This document shows positions 2,822 through 12,497 of a stretch of 64,000 bases of DNA, in pieces (positions within the stretch are counted from its first letter, which is position 1; each line of letters begins with the position of its first letter). Below the pieces are notes generated by a model. It had not been told where the DNA came from and made no database searches. It was given only the letters and a program-made list of their open reading frames with translations. The position numbers were made by a program, and so were the translations under genes. Source of the stretch: Jannaschia helgolandensis (lineage in GTDB: Bacteria; Pseudomonadota; Alphaproteobacteria; Rhodobacterales; Rhodobacteraceae); NCBI RefSeq assembly GCF_900109285.1, contig NZ_FNZQ01000002.1:186001-250000 (forward strand), in the 5' to 3' direction.

Positions 2822-3330
2822 CCGTCCGGGTCCGTCCTCTGCGGCATGAGAAAATGGCCGGTGGCCTGCGCAAACAGACGCTCGCGATTGTCCTGCCAGC
2901 CTTCGACATGGACGCTGGCATATCGACGACCGGACCGGTTCAGGCGGGCGCGGGCATAGGCGTCACGGGGCAGCCCGGCGCGCAGGTAGTCGACAGAAAA
3001 GTCGATGGTCTTGGGCAGACGCGGCAGAGCGTCATGGGTCAGGCCCTCCGGTTCCAGCCGTCCGGCCTCTAGGTCGTCCCAGAGCATCGACCACGACAGG
3101 GTGACGATAGCCGTGACCTCGAGGAATGCCGCCGTCACACCGCCATGCAGTGCAGGCAGCGCAGGGTTGCCGATCAGCTTGGGGTCGTAATGCAGAACCC
3201 CGGTCAGCTCGTCGCCGCGCCGGTCGAAGGTGATATTCAGAAACTTGATATATGGCACGCCGTCGATCAGGCCACGCAGGGCGGAATCGCGTCGTTGCTT
3301 GACGACCTGAACGGGTTCCGGCGTCTTCAT
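2818..3330 (-). CDS. PaaI family hotdog thioesterase
   Basis: Predicted acyl-CoA thioesterase of 170 residues with a single hotdog domain. The motif LHGGVTAAFLEVTA (HGG followed by an acidic residue) is the PaaI-type active-site helix. Such enzymes hydrolyse short or aromatic acyl-CoA thioesters in the cytoplasm. It overlaps the upstream thioesterase by ATGA and the downstream MATE gene by ATGA, so the three are translationally coupled. Together with the neighbouring copy it resembles an ancient tandem duplication, but the two are clearly diverged. Specificity is unknown. Confidence 0.88.
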   Translation of the reverse strand: MKTPEPVQVVKQRRDSALRGLIDGVPYIKFLNITFDRRGDELTGVLHYDPKLIGNPALPALHGGVTAAFLEVTAIVTLSWSMLWDDLEAGRLEPEGLTHDALPRLPKTIDFSVDYLRAGLPRDAYARARLNRSGRRYASVHVEGWQDNRERLFAQATGHFLMPQRTDPDG

Positions 3331-3782
3331 TTCGCCCGCGCCCGTTCCAGTGTAAAGGCTCCGTTGGCGACTGCGACGGGGCCCTTGTCGGTATCTTCGT
3401 CAAAGGCTTCGGCCCGAACGAAGGCGACAGACCGCGTGACATGATGACAAACGGCCCGCGCCGTGATCGTCTGGTGCGGCGTGGCTGCGCGCATATAGTC
3501 GATCCGCAGGTCCATGGTAGCCGTGGCAATGGGAGCGGTCGGATGGCTGAGGACAGCAGCACCCCCGGTCGTGTCCATCAGCGCGGAGACCGCACCGCCA
3601 TGGATCACGCCGGTCAGCGGATCGCCGACAAGATCGGCGGCCCAGGGCATGGAGATCGCTGCCTCCCCCTCGCCCACCGACTCGACGGTCATCGACAGGG
3701 CGCGACAATGCGGCAAGGCGGAGATGAACTGATGCGCGGCCCTGATGCGTTTGGCGGCGGCTTCTGAGGTGTCGTCGGTCAT
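3327..3782 (-). CDS. PaaI family hotdog thioesterase
   Basis: Second hotdog-fold thioesterase, 151 residues, first gene of the thioesterase-thioesterase-MATE operon. The active-site helix reads HGGAVSALMDTTGGAAV, a closer match to the PaaI consensus (HGG, Asp in the general base position, GG) than its downstream neighbour. It presumably releases CoA from small acyl-CoA thioesters. The gene lies back to back with the MerR gene at 3908, with about 125 bases between the two starts that must hold both promoters. Confidence 0.9.
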   Translation of the reverse strand: MTDDTSEAAAKRIRAAHQFISALPHCRALSMTVESVGEGEAAISMPWAADLVGDPLTGVIHGGAVSALMDTTGGAAVLSHPTAPIATATMDLRIDYMRAATPHQTITARAVCHHVTRSVAFVRAEAFDEDTDKGPVAVANGAFTLERARAK

Positions 3783-3907
3783 GCCGCAGCCTTGCCGCGA
3801 AGCGTATCGACCTGCAAGCCCGTTTGGCGTCCGGCTAAGTGACCCGGCTGCTGGCCCGGATGGACAGAACGGTCCTGACCGTGCCAGACTGACGCAGGGA
3901 GGAATCG

Positions 3908-4285
3908 ATGACGGAACGGCTGGATTTCAAACAGATGTGCGCTCGTTTCGACGTGACGCCCCGGACATTGCGTCACTACGAGTACATCGAACTTCTGTTC
4001 CCCGAGCGTGAAGGACGCGCGCGATATTATGGCGCGCGGGAAATCGCGCGAATGACGCTGATCCTTCGAGGTCGCAAATTCGGCTTTTCCCTCGAAGAAA
4101 TCCGCCAATGGCTGGAACTGTATGACGCGGATCCCGAGGGACGCACACAGATGCAGGCCTGGATCAATCTTGCCGATGGCCAATTGGCCGAACTGGCCGA
4201 CCGCAAGCGTCATCTCGACGAGGCCATCGCAGAACTTCAGGCTCTGCGGGATGGCGTAAACGCCGATCTGAAAACCAGGGACTGA
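3908..4285 (+). CDS. MerR family transcriptional regulator
   Basis: Protein of 125 residues with an N-terminal MerR winged helix (FKQMCARFDVTPRTLRHYE near residues 6-25) followed by a coiled-coil-like helix. It has no cysteine-rich effector loop, so it is not a metal sensor of the MerR/CueR kind and is more like the regulators of acyl-CoA degradation genes (LiuR type). A strong ribosome site, GGGAGGAA, precedes the ATG. It is a paralog of the second MerR gene at 4520. The position upstream of a beta-oxidation operon suggests control of fatty-acid use; this is inferred. Confidence 0.9.
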   Translation: MTERLDFKQMCARFDVTPRTLRHYEYIELLFPEREGRARYYGAREIARMTLILRGRKFGFSLEEIRQWLELYDADPEGRTQMQAWINLADGQLAELADRKRHLDEAIAELQALRDGVNADLKTRD

Positions 4286-4410
4286 ACACAACCTCAAGGT
4301 GATTCATCTCCACCCGACGCAACCTCAGCGATCTGGCTCGCCCTATATTCAGTGTTGCACGTTATCCGCGCAGCGATTGACGCAAGCGATCCTTACGTCA
4401 ACCCGATAAG

Positions 4411-4440
4411 TGACGTTACGTTCGGGTTACGTAAACGTCA
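4411..4440. promoter_or_regulatory. Candidate MerR-type operator
   Basis: The 30-base stretch begins TGACGTTACG and ends CGTAAACGTCA, an imperfect inverted repeat. Inside it, TTACGTAAACGTCA at 4427-4440 is itself a compact palindrome of the form T(T/G)ACGT-NN-ACGT(C/A)A. A further half site, TTACGTCA, lies at 4393-4400. Sites of this general composition are described for MerR regulators of branched-chain and fatty acid degradation. It sits 80-110 bases before the second MerR gene, in the gap between the two regulators, consistent with autoregulation and control of the operon downstream. The link to a specific regulator is inferred. Confidence 0.5.
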
Positions 4441-4519
4441 GCCTGGGTTGTATCGCTATGGTCGGACCCGCATCTCGACTGCATCGCCATAAGTGGCACC
4501 GAGACAAGGATGGAAAGTA

Positions 4520-4915
4520 ATGTCTGACGAACTGATGACGATCCGACAGATGTGTGACGCGTTCGACGTTACACCCCGGACGCTTCGCTTCTATGAGGCG
4601 AAAGAACTGATCAGTCCACAACGCGAAGGCCAGAAACGCTGGTTCACCCGCCGCGACCGGGCGCGCTTGAAATTGATCCTGCGCGGCAAGCGGTTCGGAT
4701 TCTCCCTCGAGGATATCCGCCAGTTGCTGGATCTTTACGATCTGGACGACGGCCAGCTGACACAGGTTTCCCGCACCTACGAGATCGGTCACGAGCGTCT
4801 GGCAGCGATGACCGCCCAGCGCGATGAACTGAACACCGCCATCGCGGAGCTGTCGGAACAGCTGCGTTGGGGGGAGAAAATAATGAATCAGGCGCAGCCC
4901 CGAAAGTTTGGCTGA
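4520..4915 (+). CDS. MerR family transcriptional regulator of the beta-oxidation operon
   Basis: Protein of 131 residues starting MSDELMTIRQMCDAF; the ATG at 4520 follows an AAGGA ribosome site and is preferred over a GTG at 4493 that adds nine residues outside the family. The wHTH (VTPRTLRFYEAKELISP) and the RGKRFGFSLEDIRQLLDLYD helix are typical MerR features, followed by a dimerisation helix. It is similar throughout its first 80 residues to the regulator at 3908. It immediately precedes the acyl-CoA dehydrogenase gene, separated only by a hairpin, so it is the most likely regulator of that operon. Confidence 0.9.
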   Translation: MSDELMTIRQMCDAFDVTPRTLRFYEAKELISPQREGQKRWFTRRDRARLKLILRGKRFGFSLEDIRQLLDLYDLDDGQLTQVSRTYEIGHERLAAMTAQRDELNTAIAELSEQLRWGEKIMNQAQPRKFG

Positions 4916-4926
4916 CCGCGACCAAC

Positions 4927-4946
4927 GGGGGCGCAGAGACGCCCCC
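4927..4946 (+). terminator. GC-rich hairpin between regulator and acyl-CoA dehydrogenase
   Basis: GGGGGCG and CGCCCCC form a perfect 7-bp stem around CAGAGA, just after the MerR stop. No T-run follows, so it is either a weak terminator, an attenuator or an mRNA stabilising element at the start of the catabolic operon. Confidence 0.45.
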
Positions 4947-4968
4947 GACGATTTGAGGAGGATCGAAC

Positions 4969-6747
4969 ATGCCCAGCTATATCGCACCCACCAAGGACAT
5001 GCAGTTCGTGCTGCACGATGTTCTGAAGGCTTCAACGCAAGACATTTCAGGCTATGACGAGATCGACCGCGATTTCACCGGTGCCGTGCTGGAAGAAGCA
5101 GGGCGTATGGCGTCCGAAGTTCTGCACCCTCTCAACGTTGTCGGCGACCGCGAAGGCTGCGTTCTCGAGAATGGCGTCGTCCGCACGCCCACTGGGTTCA
5201 AGGCGGCTTTCGATCAGGTCCGCGATGGCGGCTGGACGGCACTGGATTGCGATACAGAATACGGCGGCCAGGGCCTGCCCTATCTTATGCACACCGCGGT
5301 GGGCGAGATCCTGTCCTCGTCCAACATGGCCTTCAACATGTACCAGGGCCTGACCCACGGTGCCTATTCCGCGATCCACGCCCACGGCACGGACGCTCAG
5401 AAGCAGAAATGGCTGCCCAAGCTGACCACCTGCGAATGGACCGGCACCATGAACCTGACGGAGCCGCATTGCGGCACCGACCTGGGACTGATGCGCACCA
5501 AGGCCGAACCGCATGACGATGGTTCTTACAAGATTACCGGCCAGAAGATATTCATCTCGGCGGGCGATCACGACATGGCGGACAATATCGTCCACCTCGT
5601 GCTGGCCAAGATCGCCGGCGGACCCGAGGGCATCAAAGGGGTGTCGCTGTTCATTGTCCCCAAGATCATGGTCGACGACGATGGCAATCTGGGCGCGCTT
5701 AACGACGTCTCGGTCGGCAAGATCGAGGAAAAGATGGGCATTCACGGCAATTCGACCTGCGTAATGAACTATGATGGCGCGACAGGCTATCTGTTGGGTG
5801 AGGCGCATAAAGGCATGCGCGCCATGTTCACGATGATGAACGAGGCGCGCCTCGGTGTCGGCCTGCAAGGCTATGCCCAGGCCGAAATCGCCTATCAGAA
5901 CGCGCTGGCCTACGCGCTGGACCGCCTCCAGGGCCGCGACGTGACCGGCGTCAAGAACCCCGACGGCCCGGCCGATCCGCTGATCGTTCACCCCGACATC
6001 CGCCGCAACCTGATGGACCAGAAATCCTTCGTCGAAGGTGCGCGGGCCTTCGTATTCTGGGGCGCGATGATGATCGACCGCGCGCACCGCAACGAAGACA
6101 AGGACGCCGATGGCCTGATCTCTCTGCTGACGCCGGTCATTAAGGGTTTCCTGACCGACAAGGGCTATGAGATGGCCACCAATGCGCAGCAGGTCTATGG
6201 CGGTCACGGATATATCGAGGAATGGGGCATGTCGCAGTTTGTGCGCGACGCCCGCATCGCCCAGATCTACGAGGGCGCGAACGGTGTGCAGGCGCTGGAT
6301 CTGGTCGGTCGCAAGCTGGCCCTCGATGGCGGCAAGCATGTCATGGCTTTCTTCGACATGGTCAAGACGTTCTGCAAGGACAACGCCGAGGACGAGACTC
6401 TCAAAGCGGGCTTCCTGGAACCGCTCAAGGCCGCATCCAAGGACCTTCAGGCGGCGGGCATGTACTTTATGCAGCAGGGCATGAAGAACCCGAACGCCGC
6501 GCTCTCGGGCAGCTATGATTTCATGCACCTTTTTGGCCACGTCTGCCTTGGCCTTATGTGGGCCCGCATGGCGCAGGCTGCCGGTTCAAAACTGGGCGAA
6601 GCAGGTGCGGATCGCGATTTCCTTGACGCAAAAATCGCCACGGGGCGCTACTACATGGCGCGTCAGCTTCCGGCGACGGGGATGCACCTTGCGCGCATCC
6701 AGACCGGGTCGGAGACGGTAATGGCGCTTGAACCCACGGCTTTTTAA
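4969..6747 (+). CDS. Acyl-CoA dehydrogenase (long form, DmdC/FadE-like)
   Basis: FAD-dependent enzyme of 592 residues that introduces the trans-2 double bond into an acyl-CoA. The sequence has the N-terminal acyl-CoA dehydrogenase domain, the beta domain with [13 protein letters not shown], and the C-terminal helical domain with the catalytic glutamate in IYEGANG (Glu435), then a roughly 130-residue C-terminal extension found in the long forms. These long forms include 3-methylmercaptopropionyl-CoA dehydrogenase (DmdC) of marine roseobacters, so that substrate is an alternative to ordinary fatty acyl-CoAs. An AGGAGG ribosome site precedes the ATG. The neighbouring thiolase and FadB-type genes favour a general beta-oxidation role. 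Confidence 0.9.
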
Positions 6748-6798: not shown

Positions 6799-7020
6799 AT
6801 GCCCCGCCCGCAACGCCTGACCCGACGCTTTCCCGCCCGTATGACCGAGGCGGGATACCGACGTCTCCGCAAATTCGCGGAGGAGGCTGGACTGGACGAA
6901 GGTGAAGCGCTGTCGTTCCTGTTCGAGAACTTCGACAGCGTGACGCACCGGGACAATCTGATGCACCGGCTGGACCTGCATCTGGCGATGCTCGCGAAAC
7001 GCGGCGACACCGGCGCGTAG
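6799..7020 (+). CDS. Small conserved-type protein, ribbon-helix-helix-like
   Basis: Basic protein of 73 residues with a clear ribosome site (GGAGG) before its ATG. The order is a short basic strand-like segment (RLTRRFPARMTE), a first helix (AGYRRLRKFAEEAG) and a second helix (EGEALSFLFENF), which is the layout of ribbon-helix-helix DNA-binding proteins, but I cannot confirm the fold. It sits inside the beta-oxidation operon between the dehydrogenase and the glutathione transferase. It could be a small regulator or partner protein of the pathway. Function not recognised. Confidence 0.7.
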   Translation: MPRPQRLTRRFPARMTEAGYRRLRKFAEEAGLDEGEALSFLFENFDSVTHRDNLMHRLDLHLAMLAKRGDTGA

Positions 7021-7057: not shown

Positions 7058-7690
7058 ATGACCATCAAGCTGCATTGCTTCGGCGAGTCGGGGAATTCCT
7101 ACAAGGCCGCGCTGGCGCTGGAACTGTCCGGGCTGGATTGGGAGCCGGTGTTCGTCGATTTCTTCGGCGGTCAGGCCCGCACACCCGAATGGCGGGCCGA
7201 GAACGGCATGGGCGAAGCGCCCGTGCTGGTCGATGACGACATGCGCCTCAGCCAGTCGGGGGCAATCCAGCAGTGGATTACGGACAAGACCGGCAAGTTC
7301 GGCGGCACACCCGAGGACCGTTACGAGGTTCTGAGGTGGATCTTGTGGGACAACCACAAACTGTCGAGCCAGGCGGGCATGACCCGGTTCCTGATGAACT
7401 TCCTGCCCGAAGACAAACGCCCCGCCGAAGTGATCGCCTTCAGCCAAGGCCGCCTGAAGGCAGCCTATGACGTGCTGAACCGCCATCTTTCGGGGCGCGA
7501 CTGGATCGTCGGCAAGGGTGTCACCAACGCCGACCTGTCGTGCTGCGGCTACCTCTACTACCCCGAGCCGTTCGGTTTTGATCGCGCCGACTGGCCTAAT
7601 ATCGACGCCTGGCTGGACCGCATCGCCGCCCTGCCCGGCTGGAAATCCCCCTACGACCTGATGCCCGGCCGTCCCTCGGACCGCCAGTAA
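7058..7690 (+). CDS. Glutathione S-transferase family protein
   Basis: Protein of 210 residues with an N-terminal thioredoxin-like domain (IKLHCFGESGNSYKAALAL; the glutathione-contacting SQSGAI motif near residue 66) and an all-helical C-terminal domain ending in the WKSPYDLMPG segment. It would conjugate or use glutathione on electrophilic substrates in the cytoplasm. It is preceded by GGGAGGGAA and followed after ten bases by the thiolase gene, so it belongs to the beta-oxidation operon. Why a glutathione transferase is needed there is not known; detoxification of reactive enoyl intermediates is a guess. Confidence 0.88.
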   Translation: MTIKLHCFGESGNSYKAALALELSGLDWEPVFVDFFGGQARTPEWRAENGMGEAPVLVDDDMRLSQSGAIQQWITDKTGKFGGTPEDRYEVLRWILWDNHKLSSQAGMTRFLMNFLPEDKRPAEVIAFSQGRLKAAYDVLNRHLSGRDWIVGKGVTNADLSCCGYLYYPEPFGFDRADWPNIDAWLDRIAALPGWKSPYDLMPGRPSDRQ

Positions 7691-7700
7691 GGAGTCTCCC

Positions 7701-8915
7701 ATGACCGAAGAAGCCTATATCTACGATGCCATCCGCACCCCCCGTGGCAAGGGCCGAAAGGACGGATCGCTGCATGAGGTCACCGCAGCGCGCCTGTCCG
7801 CCGACGTGCTGAACGCACTGAAGGACCGTAACGGGTTCGAAGGCCATGCGGTCGAGGACGTGATCTGGGGCAACGCCACCCAGGTCGCCGAACAGGGCGG
7901 ATGTCTTGCCCGGACCGCCGTTCTGGCCTCCGATCTGGACCAGCGTATTCCCGGCCTGTCGATCAATCGCTTCTGTGCATCGGGCATGGAGGCCGTGAAC
8001 CTGGCCGCCAACCAGATCCGCGGCGGGGCCGGTGACGGCTATATCGCGGGCGGTGTGGAATGCATGAGCCGCGTCCCGATGGGCAGCGACGGGGCTGCCA
8101 TCGCCGTCGATCCATCTATCGCGATGAGCACCTATTTCGTCCCGCAGGGAATTTCGGCTGACATCATAGCCACCGAATATGGCTTTACCCGCGATCAGGC
8201 CGATGCCTTCGCCGTCGAGAGCCAGAAGCGCGCCGCCGCCGCGTGGAAGAATGACCGCTTCAAGAAGTCGATCGTTACCGTGCGTGATGTGAACGGCCTG
8301 CCCATTCTGGACCACGACGAATACATCCGCGAAGGCACCGACATGCAGTCGCTGGGCGCGCTCAACGCTGCGTTTCAGGCGATGGGCGAGGTCATGCCCG
8401 GCTTCGACAAGATCGCCCTGATGAAATACCCGCATCTGGAGCGGATCAATCACATCCACACGGCGGGCAATTCGTCGGGCATCGTCGATGGCGCGGCAGG
8501 CGTTTTGATCGGCAATAAGGAATTCGGCGAAAAATGGGGCCTGAAACCCCGCGCCCGCATCCGCGCCACAGCCAAGATCGGCACCGATCCGACCATCATG
8601 CTGACCGGTCCGATCCCAGTGACTGAAAAGATCCTGTCGGAGAATGGCTTGACCATCGGCGACATCGACCTGTTCGAAGTCAACGAGGCGTTTTCTTCCG
8701 TCGTGCTGCGCTTCATGCAGGCTTTCGATGTCGACCATGACAAGCTGAACGTGAATGGCGGCGCTATCGCCATGGGCCACCCGCTGGGGGCGTCCGGCGC
8801 GATCATCATCGGCACCCTGCTGGATGAGTTGGAGCGCGCGGACAAGGAAGTTGGCCTTGCCACCCTGTGCGTGGCGTCCGGCATGGGGGCAGCCACGATC
8901 ATTGAGCGGGTCTGA
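7701..8915 (+). CDS. Acetyl-CoA acyltransferase (thiolase, FadA-type)
   Basis: Thiolase of 404 residues that cleaves 3-ketoacyl-CoA with CoA to give acetyl-CoA and a shortened acyl-CoA, the last step of beta-oxidation. All catalytic residues are visible: the acyl-accepting Cys92 in NRFCASGME, His360 in GGAIAMGHPLGASGA and Cys390 in CVASGMG. The gene lies between the glutathione transferase and the paralogous unknown genes, and its stop TGA overlaps the next ATG by one base (TGATG). A biosynthetic acetoacetyl-CoA thiolase is possible but less likely given the neighbouring FadB-type gene. Confidence 0.93.
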   Translation: MTEEAYIYDAIRTPRGKGRKDGSLHEVTAARLSADVLNALKDRNGFEGHAVEDVIWGNATQVAEQGGCLARTAVLASDLDQRIPGLSINRFCASGMEAVNLAANQIRGGAGDGYIAGGVECMSRVPMGSDGAAIAVDPSIAMSTYFVPQGISADIIATEYGFTRDQADAFAVESQKRAAAAWKNDRFKKSIVTVRDVNGLPILDHDEYIREGTDMQSLGALNAAFQAMGEVMPGFDKIALMKYPHLERINHIHTAGNSSGIVDGAAGVLIGNKEFGEKWGLKPRARIRATAKIGTDPTIMLTGPIPVTEKILSENGLTIGDIDLFEVNEAFSSVVLRFMQAFDVDHDKLNVNGGAIAMGHPLGASGAIIIGTLLDELERADKEVGLATLCVASGMGAATIIERV

Positions 8916-9220
8916 TGCAGGACGCGCAAGCCATCTATCAGGACCACCTCTACATGGTGTTGATGCCGCAATGGCAGCGGGTCTTCGATAGTGTCTGCGC
9001 GTATTTGCATTTTTCCCTGCGGATCGAGACGGCGGATGCTGTGGCTATCATTCAGACGGCTCAGAAAATGCGAAAATCGCTGGAGGCGTTCCATGCGTCG
9101 CTGGTGCGTCTGGCCGCGCAGGCCTGTCACCGCGTCTGCTTGTCGGCGGCGGTCGGCCCGCCCCGCCCCCAACACATTGTCGGACGGCATCGCACCTGTA
9201 ACATGAGGAGTGGGCAATGA
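8915..9220 (+). pseudogene. First of three tandem paralogs, C-terminus lost by frameshift
   Basis: Frame of 101 residues, coupled to the thiolase stop by TGATG. Its N-terminus (AQAIYQDHL) and middle (LVRLAAQACHRVC, then HIVGRHRTCNM) align with the next two genes (AHDIYQDFL, LKGLGATAYHRLC, ITGAHTTYIM). The match ends at a stop at 9220. A different frame, 9217-9345, continues with MMDLVLAGDRW, resembling the SLMRQPDGRW segment of the second copy, and runs to a TGA overlapping the second copy's ATG as ATGA. This suggests an original gene spanning about 8915-9345 that suffered a deletion with frameshift. A genuine short protein cannot be excluded. Confidence 0.6.
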
Positions 9221-9341
9221 TGGATCTGGTGCTTGCCGGTGACAGGTGGTGCAGTTCGTGCATCCGGTCCAACCATCGGAACGCTGCCTGTCCTGTCATC
9301 AGCCCCGAACGTCACAAAACGTTCGGCAAGGAGGACGGAGG

Positions 9342-9797
9342 ATGACGCAGGCGCACGATATCTATCAGGACTTCCTCGACACGGCCTCGATCGCGCTGTG
9401 GAACCGTGACTACACTACCGTCGCCGCAATGTTGTCTTATCCCCACCTGATCCGCCTGCCCGAGACGGACCGCATCATCCAGAATGCCGCCGAACAACAG
9501 CTGGACGCGCAGGCGTTCCGGGAAAGCCTCAAGGGCCTGGGCGCGACGGCCTACCACAGGCTGTGCCGTGACGCGCAATTCGACCCTGACGGGCCGGATC
9601 GGATTACGGGCGCGCATACAACCTACATCATGCGCGGCGGCAGTTATCTGACCGATCCCTATGAATGCCGGATGTCGCTAATGCGTCAGCCCGATGGACG
9701 CTGGCTTGCGGACGCCATCAATGTTTCTGTTCGTAAAAGCGGCATGGCCTACTATCATCCCGACAACATCCGCGCTCGCACCGGGCGCCCGAAATGA
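9342..9797 (+). CDS. Second tandem paralog, unknown function, possible NTF2-like fold
   Basis: Protein of 151 residues; the ATG at 9342 follows GGAGGACGGAGG, whereas the longer frame from 9246 adds unrelated residues. The N-terminal helix (HDIYQDFLDTASIALWNRDY), the SYPHLIRLPET segment, the LGATAYHRLC strand and the GSYLTDPYECRMSLM strand are shared with the copy at 9844. The pattern of long helices and then antiparallel strands is compatible with an NTF2/SnoaL-like fold, which is inferred only. Placed between thiolase and the FadB-type gene, it may handle an acyl-CoA intermediate or act as a partner protein. No catalytic motif is recognised. Confidence 0.75.
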   Translation: MTQAHDIYQDFLDTASIALWNRDYTTVAAMLSYPHLIRLPETDRIIQNAAEQQLDAQAFRESLKGLGATAYHRLCRDAQFDPDGPDRITGAHTTYIMRGGSYLTDPYECRMSLMRQPDGRWLADAINVSVRKSGMAYYHPDNIRARTGRPK

Positions 9798-9843
9798 TTA
9801 CCAGCACCGCTGCCGCTCTGGACCCGAACTGGAAGAGACCCCG

Positions 9844-10266
9844 ATGAAAGACGCCCTGACCATCTATCAATATCACCTCGACTCCGTATCTCAGCTTATC
9901 TGGGACCGCGATTTCGAAGGCGTTACGGCACTCATGACCTATCCGCATGAACTGGCGACCGCGCGCGGTGTCACGGTCGTCGATCGCCCCGAGACGATGG
10001 TCGACTGGGCGCGCGAGTTTCGCGCCCACCTCGATCAACTGGGCGCGACTTCGTATCACCGGGTCGCCGTCGCCGCCGCCATCAGCGGCGAGGACGAAAG
10101 CGAGATCAGTGGCTTTCACCGCGTCTATGTCCTGTCTGGTGCGACCCATCTGATCGACCCCTACATCAGTGAAGCCACCCTGAAACTCTGCGACGGGGTC
10201 TGGCTGGGCAGTGGTGTGCGCGCCGTCCTGCGCAGCACCCGATATCCGGTGGACGACGAAGCCTGA
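9844..10266 (+). CDS. Third tandem paralog, unknown function, possible NTF2-like fold
   Basis: Protein of 140 residues beginning MKDALTIYQYHLDSV; this ATG matches the N-terminus of the other two copies and is chosen over an upstream start at 9694. Shared elements with the second copy are IYQ.HLD, LIWDRDFEGV / LWNRDYTTV, YPH.L, LGATSYHRV and THLIDPY. It is followed after about 40 bases by the FadB-type gene. Retention of two intact copies in an operon suggests a useful function in fatty-acid degradation, but none can be assigned from sequence. Confidence 0.75.
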   Translation: MKDALTIYQYHLDSVSQLIWDRDFEGVTALMTYPHELATARGVTVVDRPETMVDWAREFRAHLDQLGATSYHRVAVAAAISGEDESEISGFHRVYVLSGATHLIDPYISEATLKLCDGVWLGSGVRAVLRSTRYPVDDEA

Positions 10267-10307
10267 CGTTCATCCCCACCTTTCCCCTTTACCGAAAAGA
10301 GACCGCC

Positions 10308-12497
10308 ATGACCGATTTCACCCTGACCAAGGACGCCGACGGCATCGCTACCATCACATGGGACGTGGTGGGCAAATCGATGAACGTCCTCAGCCTCGAA
10401 GGCTGGGACGATCTGGATGGCTGTGTCACCGACGCGCTGGGCGACGACGCGGTGAAGGGCATCGTCATCACTTCCGGCAAGGACACGTTCGCCGGTGGCA
10501 TGGATCTGAACGTCATCGCCAAGATGAAGGCAATGTCCGGCGACGATCCGGCGGCGGGCCTGATGGACGGCTTGATGAAATCCCACGCGATCCTGCGCAA
10601 GATCGAGCGGGCCAATCTGGACCCCAAGACCAATAAAGGGGGCAAGCCGGTTGCCTGCGTCCTTCCGGGCACAGCGCTCGGTATCGGGTTCGAGATCCCC
10701 CTTGCCTGCCACCGCATCTTCGCCGCCGACAACCCCAAGGCCAAGATCGGCCTGCCGGAAATCATGGTCGGGATCTTCCCCGGCATGGGCGGCACGACCC
10801 GTCTGGCGCGCAAGATGGGCGCGATGGCCGCTTCGCCGTTCCTGCTGGAAGGCAAGCTCTCCGACCCGAAGAAGGCCAAATCGGCCGGTCTGATCGACGA
10901 GGTTTCCTCCGATCCGATGGCCGACGCCCGCGCCTGGGTCCTGTCGGCGACCGATGCCGATATCGTCAAACCGTGGGATGCCAAGGGTTACAAGATGCCC
11001 GGCGGCACGCCCTATCACCCGGCAGGCTTCATGACCTTCGTCGGAGCCAGCGCGATGGTGAATGGCAAGACCCAAGGCGCCTTTCCCGCCGCCAAGGCCC
11101 TGCTGTCGGCAGTATACGAAGGTGCGCTGGTGCCCTTCGACACGGCGCTTAAGATCGAAGCACGCTGGTTCACCCACGTTCTGATGAACCCCTCGTCCGA
11201 GGCGATGATCCGCAGCCTGTTCATTAACAAGGAAGCACTGGAGAAAGGCGCGAACCGGCCCGATGCGCCCGATCAGAAGGTGTCCAAGCTGGGCGTCATC
11301 GGTGCGGGCATGATGGGCGCGGGCATCGCCTATGTTTCGGCGAACGCCGGTATCGAAGTCGTATTGATTGACCGCGAACAGGCCGCCGCCGACAAGGGAA
11401 AGTCCTATTCCGAAGGCATCCTCGATAAGGGCATCTCTCGTAAGAAGGTGACCGAAGACAAAAAGGCCGAGGTTCTGAGTCGCATCACTGCCACCACGGA
11501 CCTGAAGGCACTCGAAGGGTGCGACCTGATCGTGGAAGCCGTCTTCGAAGACGTTGACGTCAAGGCCGATATGACAAAAGCGGTCGAAGCAATCGTGGGC
11601 AAGGATTGCATCTTCGCCACCAACACCTCCACCCTGCCGATTACCGAACTGGCCAAGGCCAGCGCCCGGCCCGATCAGTTCATCGGCATTCACTTCTTTT
11701 CGCCCGTCGACAAGATGCTGCTGGTCGAGATCATCAAGGGCAAGCAGACGGGTGACATCGCCGTGGCCAAGGCGCTCGATTTCGTGCGCCAGATCCGCAA
11801 GACCCCGATCGTGGTGAACGATGCACGGTTCTTCTATGCCAACCGCTGCATCATCCCTTATATCAACGAAGGAATCCGCATGGTCGCCGAAGGGGTTTCC
11901 CCGTCGCTGATCGAAAACGCGGCCAAGATGCTGGGCTTCCCGCTGGGGCCGCTGCAACTGGTGGACGAGACCTCCATCGATCTGGGCGTCAAGATCGCGG
12001 TCGCGACGCGGGCGGCAATGGGCGACGCCTATCCCGATGGCGCGGTGGACGAGGTTCTGTTTGCGTTCAAGGACGCGGGCCGTCTGGGTAAAAAGTCGAA
12101 TGCGGGCTTCTACGACTACGACGACAAGGGCAAGCGGCAAGGCCTGTGGCAGGAGTTGGGCACGCGCTATCCGGAGGCCGGGGAGCAGCCCGACCTGCAT
12201 GAGGTTCAGAACCGCCTGATGTTCGCGCAGGTACTGGAGGCGGTTCGCGCTCTGGAAGAAGGCGTACTGGAGGACATTCGCGAAGGCGACGTCGGTGCGA
12301 TTTTGGGGTGGGGCTTTGCGCCGTGGTCCGGCGGACCGTTCAGCTGGCTCGACATTGTTGGCGCGGCCTGGGCTGCGGATACCTGCGATGCACTGACGGT
12401 CAAGTACGGCGACCGTTTCAAGACGCCTTCGATGCTGCGGCGGATGGCCGAAGACGGAACGGCGTTCTATGGCGACACCGCGCAGCAGGCGGCCTGA
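10308..12497 (+). CDS. Bifunctional enoyl-CoA hydratase / 3-hydroxyacyl-CoA dehydrogenase
   Basis: Protein of 729 residues carrying steps two and three of beta-oxidation. The N-terminal crotonase domain (about 1-190) contains GGMDLNV and the LPEIMVGIFPGMGGT stretch with the hydratase glutamate. The NAD-binding dehydrogenase domain starts near residue 325 (GVIGAGMMGAGIAY) and has the HFFSPVDKM motif, followed by two C-terminal helical domains (FFYANRC, KSNAGFYDY). It is the FadB/FadJ type. It completes the pathway with the dehydrogenase and thiolase encoded upstream. A hairpin lies just after its stop. Confidence 0.94.
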   Translation: MTDFTLTKDADGIATITWDVVGKSMNVLSLEGWDDLDGCVTDALGDDAVKGIVITSGKDTFAGGMDLNVIAKMKAMSGDDPAAGLMDGLMKSHAILRKIERANLDPKTNKGGKPVACVLPGTALGIGFEIPLACHRIFAADNPKAKIGLPEIMVGIFPGMGGTTRLARKMGAMAASPFLLEGKLSDPKKAKSAGLIDEVSSDPMADARAWVLSATDADIVKPWDAKGYKMPGGTPYHPAGFMTFVGASAMVNGKTQGAFPAAKALLSAVYEGALVPFDTALKIEARWFTHVLMNPSSEAMIRSLFINKEALEKGANRPDAPDQKVSKLGVIGAGMMGAGIAYVSANAGIEVVLIDREQAAADKGKSYSEGILDKGISRKKVTEDKKAEVLSRITATTDLKALEGCDLIVEAVFEDVDVKADMTKAVEAIVGKDCIFATNTSTLPITELAKASARPDQFIGIHFFSPVDKMLLVEIIKGKQTGDIAVAKALDFVRQIRKTPIVVNDARFFYANRCIIPYINEGIRMVAEGVSPSLIENAAKMLGFPLGPLQLVDETSIDLGVKIAVATRAAMGDAYPDGAVDEVLFAFKDAGRLGKKSNAGFYDYDDKGKRQGLWQELGTRYPEAGEQPDLHEVQNRLMFAQVLEAVRALEEGVLEDIREGDVGAILGWGFAPWSGGPFSWLDIVGAAWAADTCDALTVKYGDRFKTPSMLRRMAEDGTAFYGDTAQQAA

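Follow-up and report, generated by a model that had tools for sequence, protein, structure and literature searches.

The locus and its three copies

In this work we have examined a cluster of beta-oxidation genes of Jannaschia helgolandensis, which lies in a stretch of 64,000 nucleotides that we call the window. Between the thiolase gene and a gene of the FadJ/FadB type (fadJ below) there are three open reading frames (ORFs), numbered here copies 1 to 3, and we refer to their place as the slot (Table 1). A sequence-only reading of this DNA had described them as three tandem paralogs. Pairwise comparison supports their being true paralogs: copy 2 matches copy 3 at an E-value of 1e-25 (32% identity over 133 residues), and copy 1 matches copy 2 at 1e-18 (37% over 100) and copy 3 at 5e-16 (34% over 93). 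The homology therefore held, but the number of genes did not, since copy 1 is a decayed pseudogene by its sequence and the locus consists of two genes and one pseudogene. In its own frame copy 1 can be aligned with the family profile up to position 101, where a stop is reached (E 3e-26, three-sequence search), and the match goes on in a different frame. The possibility that copy 1 is a short functional gene was dropped, because the profile match continues in this way past the stop. The DPY segment is missing as well as the frame shifted, and three conserved residues are replaced, D13 by Y, D23 by V and P34 by S; elsewhere P34 is nearly invariant, occurring in 90 of 92 domains (42/43 in subfamily A, 23/23 single-domain members of subfamily B, 13/13 N-terminal and 12/13 C-terminal halves of the two-domain proteins described below). 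With several lesions in the same ORF, a sequencing slip is unlikely. The motifs which had been named as common to all copies fared similarly: copies 2 and 3 carry IYQ, W-RD, LGAT-YHR and DPY, but copy 1 has only kept the first, as IYQDHL, with WQRVF in place of W-RD, LAAQACHR in place of LGAT-YHR, and no DPY. In the tree, copy 1 of the window groups with copy 1 of two other congeners, not with that of its nearest relatives (support 96/91, on a long branch), and the copy-1 orthologs of three congeners gave omega values of 0.17-0.37 (3 pairs).

The two intact copies look constrained in sequence comparisons. Copy 2 has positional orthologs in three congeneric genomes and copy 3 in two. NG86 omega was 0.10-0.17 among the 6 pairs from 4 species available for copy 2, and 0.19-0.25 among the 3 pairs from 3 species for copy 3. 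By comparison, the glutathione S-transferase-fold gene gave 0.14-0.23, and the acyl-CoA dehydrogenase, the thiolase and FadJ gave 0.06-0.10. All of these are rough values, because the synonymous divergence (dS 0.6-2.1) approaches saturation and in most cases is greater in the copies than in the enzymes. Copy 2 (4 rows, support 98/91) and copy 3 (3 rows, 100/99) each form a clade of their own, so the duplication which split them predates these species. The copies diverge quickly: copy 2 shares 67-70% identity with its congeneric counterparts, compared with 89-90% for the thiolase and 91% for FadJ.

The NTF2-fold genes are probably co-transcribed with the beta-oxidation enzymes. From the acyl-CoA dehydrogenase gene to fadJ the intergenic gaps are, in order, 51, 37, 10, -1, 121, 46 and 41 bp; the last four, from thiolase to fadJ, are of a spacing compatible with a single operon, and the first of these reflects the ATG of copy 1, which overlaps the thiolase stop by one base. 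In a consensus scan of positions 8700-10400 there was no terminator-like site, against 0.9 expected, and a single promoter-like site (9024-9051), against 0.5, counts so near expectation that the scan says little.

Further upstream, the order at the acyl-CoA dehydrogenase gene was unchanged in all 16 family-bearing congeners. The ORF of 73 residues which follows it had BLASTP matches in 12 of these 16 and no match in a Pfam search. Several congeners have an additional ORF between the glutathione S-transferase-fold gene and the thiolase gene (L022 7042-7640, L024 7168-7715, L031 6855-7462, L033 3436-3980), which we take to be YidD-like from its SPRKGYRC..GCSGYAK motif.

Table 1. Genes and gene remnants around the slot, in window coordinates
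Feature	Position	Strand	Basis
Acyl-CoA dehydrogenase with PF12806 C-terminal domain	4969-6747	+	Pfam
ORF of 73 residues between acyl-CoA dehydrogenase and glutathione S-transferase-fold genes	6799-7020	+	
Glutathione S-transferase-fold gene, adjoins thiolase	7058-7690	+	
Thiolase, upstream border of slot	7701-8915	+	NCBIfam PRK08242, above cut-off
Copy 1, NTF2-like family member decayed to a pseudogene	8915-9220	+	Family profile, pairwise comparison
3' remnant of copy 1, other reading frame	9214-9315	+	Family profile positions 109-142, E 2e-4
Copy 2, intact, predicted NTF2-like protein of 151 residues	9342-9797	+	ORF, AlphaFold2 model
Copy 3, intact, predicted NTF2-like protein of 140 residues	9844-10266	+	ORF, AlphaFold2 model
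FadJ/FadB-type enoyl-CoA hydratase / 3-hydroxyacyl-CoA dehydrogenase, downstream border of slot	10308-12497	+	Best NCBIfam match FadJ, below cut-off

Predicted fold and range of the family

The copies belong to a family not previously catalogued, with a well-known fold and a conserved place, and the suggestion that the family was an unknown one was supported. The best Pfam match of 26 family members had an E-value of 0.017, and the only match of these members to the NTF2 clan was SnoaL_3 in one of them, at E 0.21 and short of the curated cut-offs. The window copies had no match to the NTF2 clan at E 1 or better and none in NCBIfam; their Pfam match to ACD (E 0.12) was set aside as chance. Sequence searches of the PDB gave one match for copy 2 (E 0.48) and weak partial matches for the family profile (best E 0.088). 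Among relatives from other genomes, an ORF in the L043 slot reached the NTF2-like family DUF6841 (PF20795) at 20.5 bits, below the cut-off of 27, and the two-domain ORF of L113 reached SnoaL_4 (PF13577) at 20.3 bits (cut-off 24) and DUF4440 at 17.7 bits (cut-off 25.2). A literature search for NTF2-like proteins in Rhodobacteraceae or Roseobacteraceae found no papers, and in our other searches no title or opening of an abstract dealt with this operon; none of the papers searched gave the family a function.

Copies 2 and 3 have an NTF2-like fold as far as prediction can tell, with neighbours of the SnoaL, ketosteroid isomerase and dehydratase type. Their AlphaFold2 models, each built with the same 17 sequences, are confident (predicted local distance difference test 88.2 and 90.2, predicted template modelling score 0.81 and 0.83 for copies 2 and 3, respectively). 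In both, the elements follow the order H-H-E-E-H-E-E-E-E, and three helices pack against a curved, mostly antiparallel sheet to form the cone typical of this fold. Foldseek found 315 PDB chains for copy 2 and 491 for copy 3 at E 0.001 or better, the best being SgcJ (4ovm) for both, at 4.1e-7 and 9.9e-8. When 1000 chains chosen by Foldseek were compared using VIA-align, 948 and 953 of them scored Z 8 or more. The highest scores belonged to designed NTF2-fold binders (5iep, Z 16.0 for copy 2 and 15.1 for copy 3), and were followed by 3hx8 (14.9 for copy 2, at 3.8 A over 124 aligned residues, and 14.8 for copy 3), Aln2 (14.6 with copy 2, 2.6 A, 128 aligned), scytalone dehydratase 1idp (12.6 for copy 2; 14.0 for copy 3, 2.9 A, 126 aligned) and the bile-acid 7-alpha dehydratase 4l8p (12.8 and 13.0); SgcJ, SgcE6 and the hub domains of CaMKII, the latter at Z about 13, were also among these neighbours. 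Rows within Z 1 of each other count as tied, so that the fold is as settled as a prediction allows and no function is singled out. The proposal of NTF2-like proteins in the sequence-only reading is therefore well supported by two models and by structure comparison, and neither of the outcomes that would have spoken against a common family, a lack of similarity between the copies or unrelated folds, was observed.

How widely is the family distributed? A search with copy 2 found relatives in 16 of 19 congeners, in one of 16 genera from the rest of the taxonomic family and in none of 24 genomes elsewhere in the class. A profile of 26 rows detected the family in 82 of the 295 genera sampled from this taxonomic family, Jannaschia included. 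In a class-wide draw of 289 genomes two matched, the window's own and one more from the same taxonomic family; kinship is listed for 22 of these rows, four of them from that family, and, to judge from the order of the listing, the remaining 267 would come from outside it. In the genomes sampled, then, sequence matches confine the family to the taxonomic family of Jannaschia, which NCBI places in the Roseobacteraceae (order Rhodobacterales) and GTDB in the Rhodobacteraceae. A search of plasmids gave no match. The named carriers are Jannaschia pohangensis, donghaensis, aquimarina, faecimaris, marina and an uncultured Jannaschia and, beyond the genus, metagenome-assembled genomes of Lentibacter and Roseobacter, and Rhodalgimonas. 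These come from a contig search with a narrower alignment, an earlier scan having given no match. One of the ten named-genome matches (L092) is titled Flavobacteriia and marked unverified, and its figures equal those of the Roseobacter genome L093; we used 15 of the 16 family ORFs from named genomes further, omitting L093 as a double of L092.

Within the family, a tree of 93 rows, obtained by a quick search in which 12 of the 90 inner branches were starred, splits with support of 99 into subfamily A (44 rows) and subfamily B (49 rows). Subfamily A holds 26 of the 29 Jannaschia-type rows, among them copies 2 and 3 and the pseudogene copy 1. Subfamily B contains all 26 halves of two-domain proteins, of which we found 13 in 13 of the 42 genera with family domains (80 loci examined), their halves lying 18-41 residues apart by profile envelope; shared open frames in the match table of the 26-row profile search suggest fusions in 18 genera. 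The N-terminal and C-terminal halves cluster separately (4 and 5 changes, compared with 12.4 and 12.5 in shuffles) and both subfamilies are present in several genomes (e.g. G001, G129, G142, G261, G278), which is what one would expect from the sequences if neighbouring domains pair. In subfamily A five positions are strongly conserved: Q9 (41/43), D13 (42/43), R73 (39/43), H92 (39/43) and W121 (40/43). According to the models Q9 and D13 lie one helical turn apart on helix 1; R73 is on strand 3 and H92 on strand 4, the first two of the four strands at the C-terminal end. This polar set of Q9, D13, R73 and H92 may sit at the pocket of the cone.

The slot across the taxonomic family

The slot is a family-wide feature. 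In 70 of the 81 other family-bearing genera at least one copy lies upstream of fadJ, no more than 3.2 kb away and on the same strand, as do 102 of the 129 family matches; the remaining 11 genera carry the family only elsewhere. Gene order around the slot is kept in 16 of 19 congeners. In these 19 the slot holds three copies in two genomes, two in six and one in eight, and a cupin gene, an ORF with DUF559 or nothing in one genome each. A census of 60 further genera, drawn from the best-listed FadJ matches rather than at random and omitting G000 and three genera already examined, found the slot empty (a gap below 150 bp) in 28, with NTF2-fold genes only in 16, with these and a cupin gene in 5, with a cupin gene only in 6, with a weak NTF2-like match only in 2 and with something else in 3. 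The corresponding figures for 16 other genera of our first set of relatives were 7 empty, 4 cupin, 1 NTF2, 1 both, 1 weak and 2 other; six of this set were called empty from gaps of 15-79 bp (G030, G033, G035 and three with no thiolase in a short stretch). Of these 76 slots taken together, 41 are filled. In 36 cases the occupant is an NTF2-fold gene (in 3 of them no more than a weak profile match) or a cupin gene, and in 5 it is something else, although among these five L043 has the sub-threshold NTF2-like match mentioned above and L146 is a gap of 173 bp. Where it is not empty, the slot carries one to four NTF2 domains, sometimes with a cupin beside them or in their place. The view of the tandem array as unusual was right only in part, since other genera of the taxonomic family also have arrays at this place.

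The cupin family was seen at the slot in 11 of the 60 genera (L101, L107, L109, L112, L116, L127, L142, L145, L150 and others); the L101 protein matches Cupin_2 (PF07883) at 60.8 bits, and L150 has one ORF with two cupins. A mutual replacement of cupin and NTF2 genes was considered and dropped, as both occur together in 5 of the 60 genera, compared with 3.9 expected if they were independent. A NADAR-domain gene (PF08719) fills the slot of L151 (G313). In L049 (G027), where the family is absent, an ORF that by eye looks similar to NADAR lies beside an apparent Fic/Doc toxin-antitoxin pair.

Copies outside the slot were surveyed in 17 stretches. No neighbour shared by them was seen, a weak result because the gene finder recognised a family gene in just 6 of these stretches (L038, L155, L160, L161, L162, L168). 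In L160 (G063, 3042-4711) two family genes are inserted on the opposite strand in a ribosomal protein operon (ribosomal genes recognized by eye), and in L156 (G177, about 3868-5572) the family match falls in an insert of the same operon. An ORF of roughly 200 residues in the L160 insert resembles one in L156. In L168 (2461-4122) the family member directly follows an ORF of 372 residues which by eye looks like a ketoacyl-ACP synthase III.

Possible roles of the family

What could such proteins contribute to beta-oxidation? We tentatively favour a role as cytosolic accessory proteins with a pocket, either binders or lyases/isomerases, which perhaps act as hetero-oligomers. A small NTF2-fold cone with Q9, D13, R73 and H92 at its pocket would bind an atypical acyl-CoA intermediate, for example one with a hydroxylated or cyclic acyl chain, which the core thiolase/FadJ pair would handle poorly, and might dehydrate or isomerise it there. 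Tandem paralogs would then differ in their ligands or, as the two-domain fusions suggest, pair as hetero-oligomers. The description of the family as non-enzymatic-looking gained no support, as the window copies have no hydrophobic leader, and this, together with the conserved polar set, would suit an enzyme as well. Nor was there direct support for substrate channelling or a partner role, which the sequence-only reading had also suggested.

Known systems resemble the family at the level of the fold. SgcJ, SgcE6 and Aln2 (4ovm, 4i4k, 6p7l) share it, are the best Foldseek matches and are, with 3hx8, among the top natural proteins by VIA-align, but they are only 9-22% identical to the Jannaschia copies and occur in a different gene setting, that of enediyne or polyketide genes. 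Scytalone dehydratase and the bile-acid 7-alpha dehydratases (1idp, 4l8p, 4leh; Z 12.6-14.0) share the fold and may have a similar layout, with acid/base residues on helix 1 and strands 3-4; these enzymes have a histidine where the Jannaschia family has R73. SteC, the C12beta-hydroxysteroid dehydratase of Comamonas testosteroni, is described in PMC13101464 as an NTF2-fold protein of a degradative route that includes beta-oxidation steps; it differs in being steroid-specific, and the likeness is one of description only. The same paper has SteC and BaiE, both NTF2-fold dehydratases, acting on steroid-ring hydroxyls in degradation and conversion routes, which would be a precedent, by analogy, for chemistry of this kind in the Jannaschia family. 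In passages of Eberhardt et al. (PMC3924330) the NTF2 fold is presented as a molecular container, catalytic or not, its enzymatic members are linked with an intracellular location and conserved polar residues are taken as a sign of catalysis. By analogy with these passages, both signs hold for the Jannaschia family, which is suggestive only.

Several observations weigh against an accessory pocket protein. Of the 23 single-domain members of subfamily B, 11 have H at position 92 and 10 have Y, so a strict catalytic histidine is not general. The family gene is optional: 35 of the 76 slots in other genera are empty, and therefore no core step needs it. The off-slot copies in unrelated places, such as the ribosomal protein operon, weaken a role in beta-oxidation only, and the near-saturated dS values belong here as well.

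A rival explanation is a permissive landing place, a well-expressed operon in which unrelated small genes settle, the NTF2-fold genes having no role in beta-oxidation. Besides the NTF2-fold genes the slot houses cupin, NADAR and DUF559 genes and, in one genome, several other ORFs; off-slot copies also sit in housekeeping places, and cupin and NTF2 genes co-occur at close to the independent frequency. Random insertion, however, should not favour two folds as often as in 36 of 41 occupied slots, and the orthologs hold their place across species, so we regard this explanation as somewhat unlikely.

Could the proteins be non-catalytic? As partners or scaffolds, comparable to NTF2-fold hubs and the beta subunits of dioxygenases, these small subunits would attach to the thiolase/FadJ pair, or to one another, and serve to stabilise the pair or to bring it together. 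Thiolase and FadB/FadJ-type products work together in well-known bacterial fatty acid oxidation complexes, and the fixed position between their genes, the start codon of copy 1 overlapping the thiolase stop, the tandem pairs and the fusions in 13 of 42 genera, and the CaMKII hubs among the structural neighbours would all agree with this. A scaffold is nevertheless unlikely, given that the copies change far faster than their supposed partners and that 35 of 76 genera manage with an empty slot. A variant which we consider quite improbable is that of an unrecognised, fast-evolving auxiliary subunit, in which homo- or heteromeric NTF2-fold proteins, covalently doubled in 13 genera, would dock on thiolase/FadJ and set its substrate range, and could be combined with the cupin encoded at the slot. 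It is highly improbable that the copies are immunity-like or stress proteins, i.e. fast-diverging tandem NTF2-fold binders of toxic small molecules or proteins, for although tandem arrays and high divergence would suit this and NTF2-fold immunity proteins of polymorphic toxin systems are on record in part of PMC3924330, linkage to fadJ would be unexpected, the polar set is conserved across the family and no toxin gene was noticed beside family-bearing slots, for which no systematic search was made.

Fatty-acid oxidation is usually viewed as a closed set of enzymes, and here a family present in 82 of the 295 genera sampled from one taxonomic family is mostly bound to its operon. Its slot shared by many genera, the two-domain proteins and the neighbouring cupin set this family apart from a routine hypothetical protein. 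Perhaps it provides an accessory step for unusual marine acids or a subunit for the handling of substrates, or it may be a passenger of the operon.

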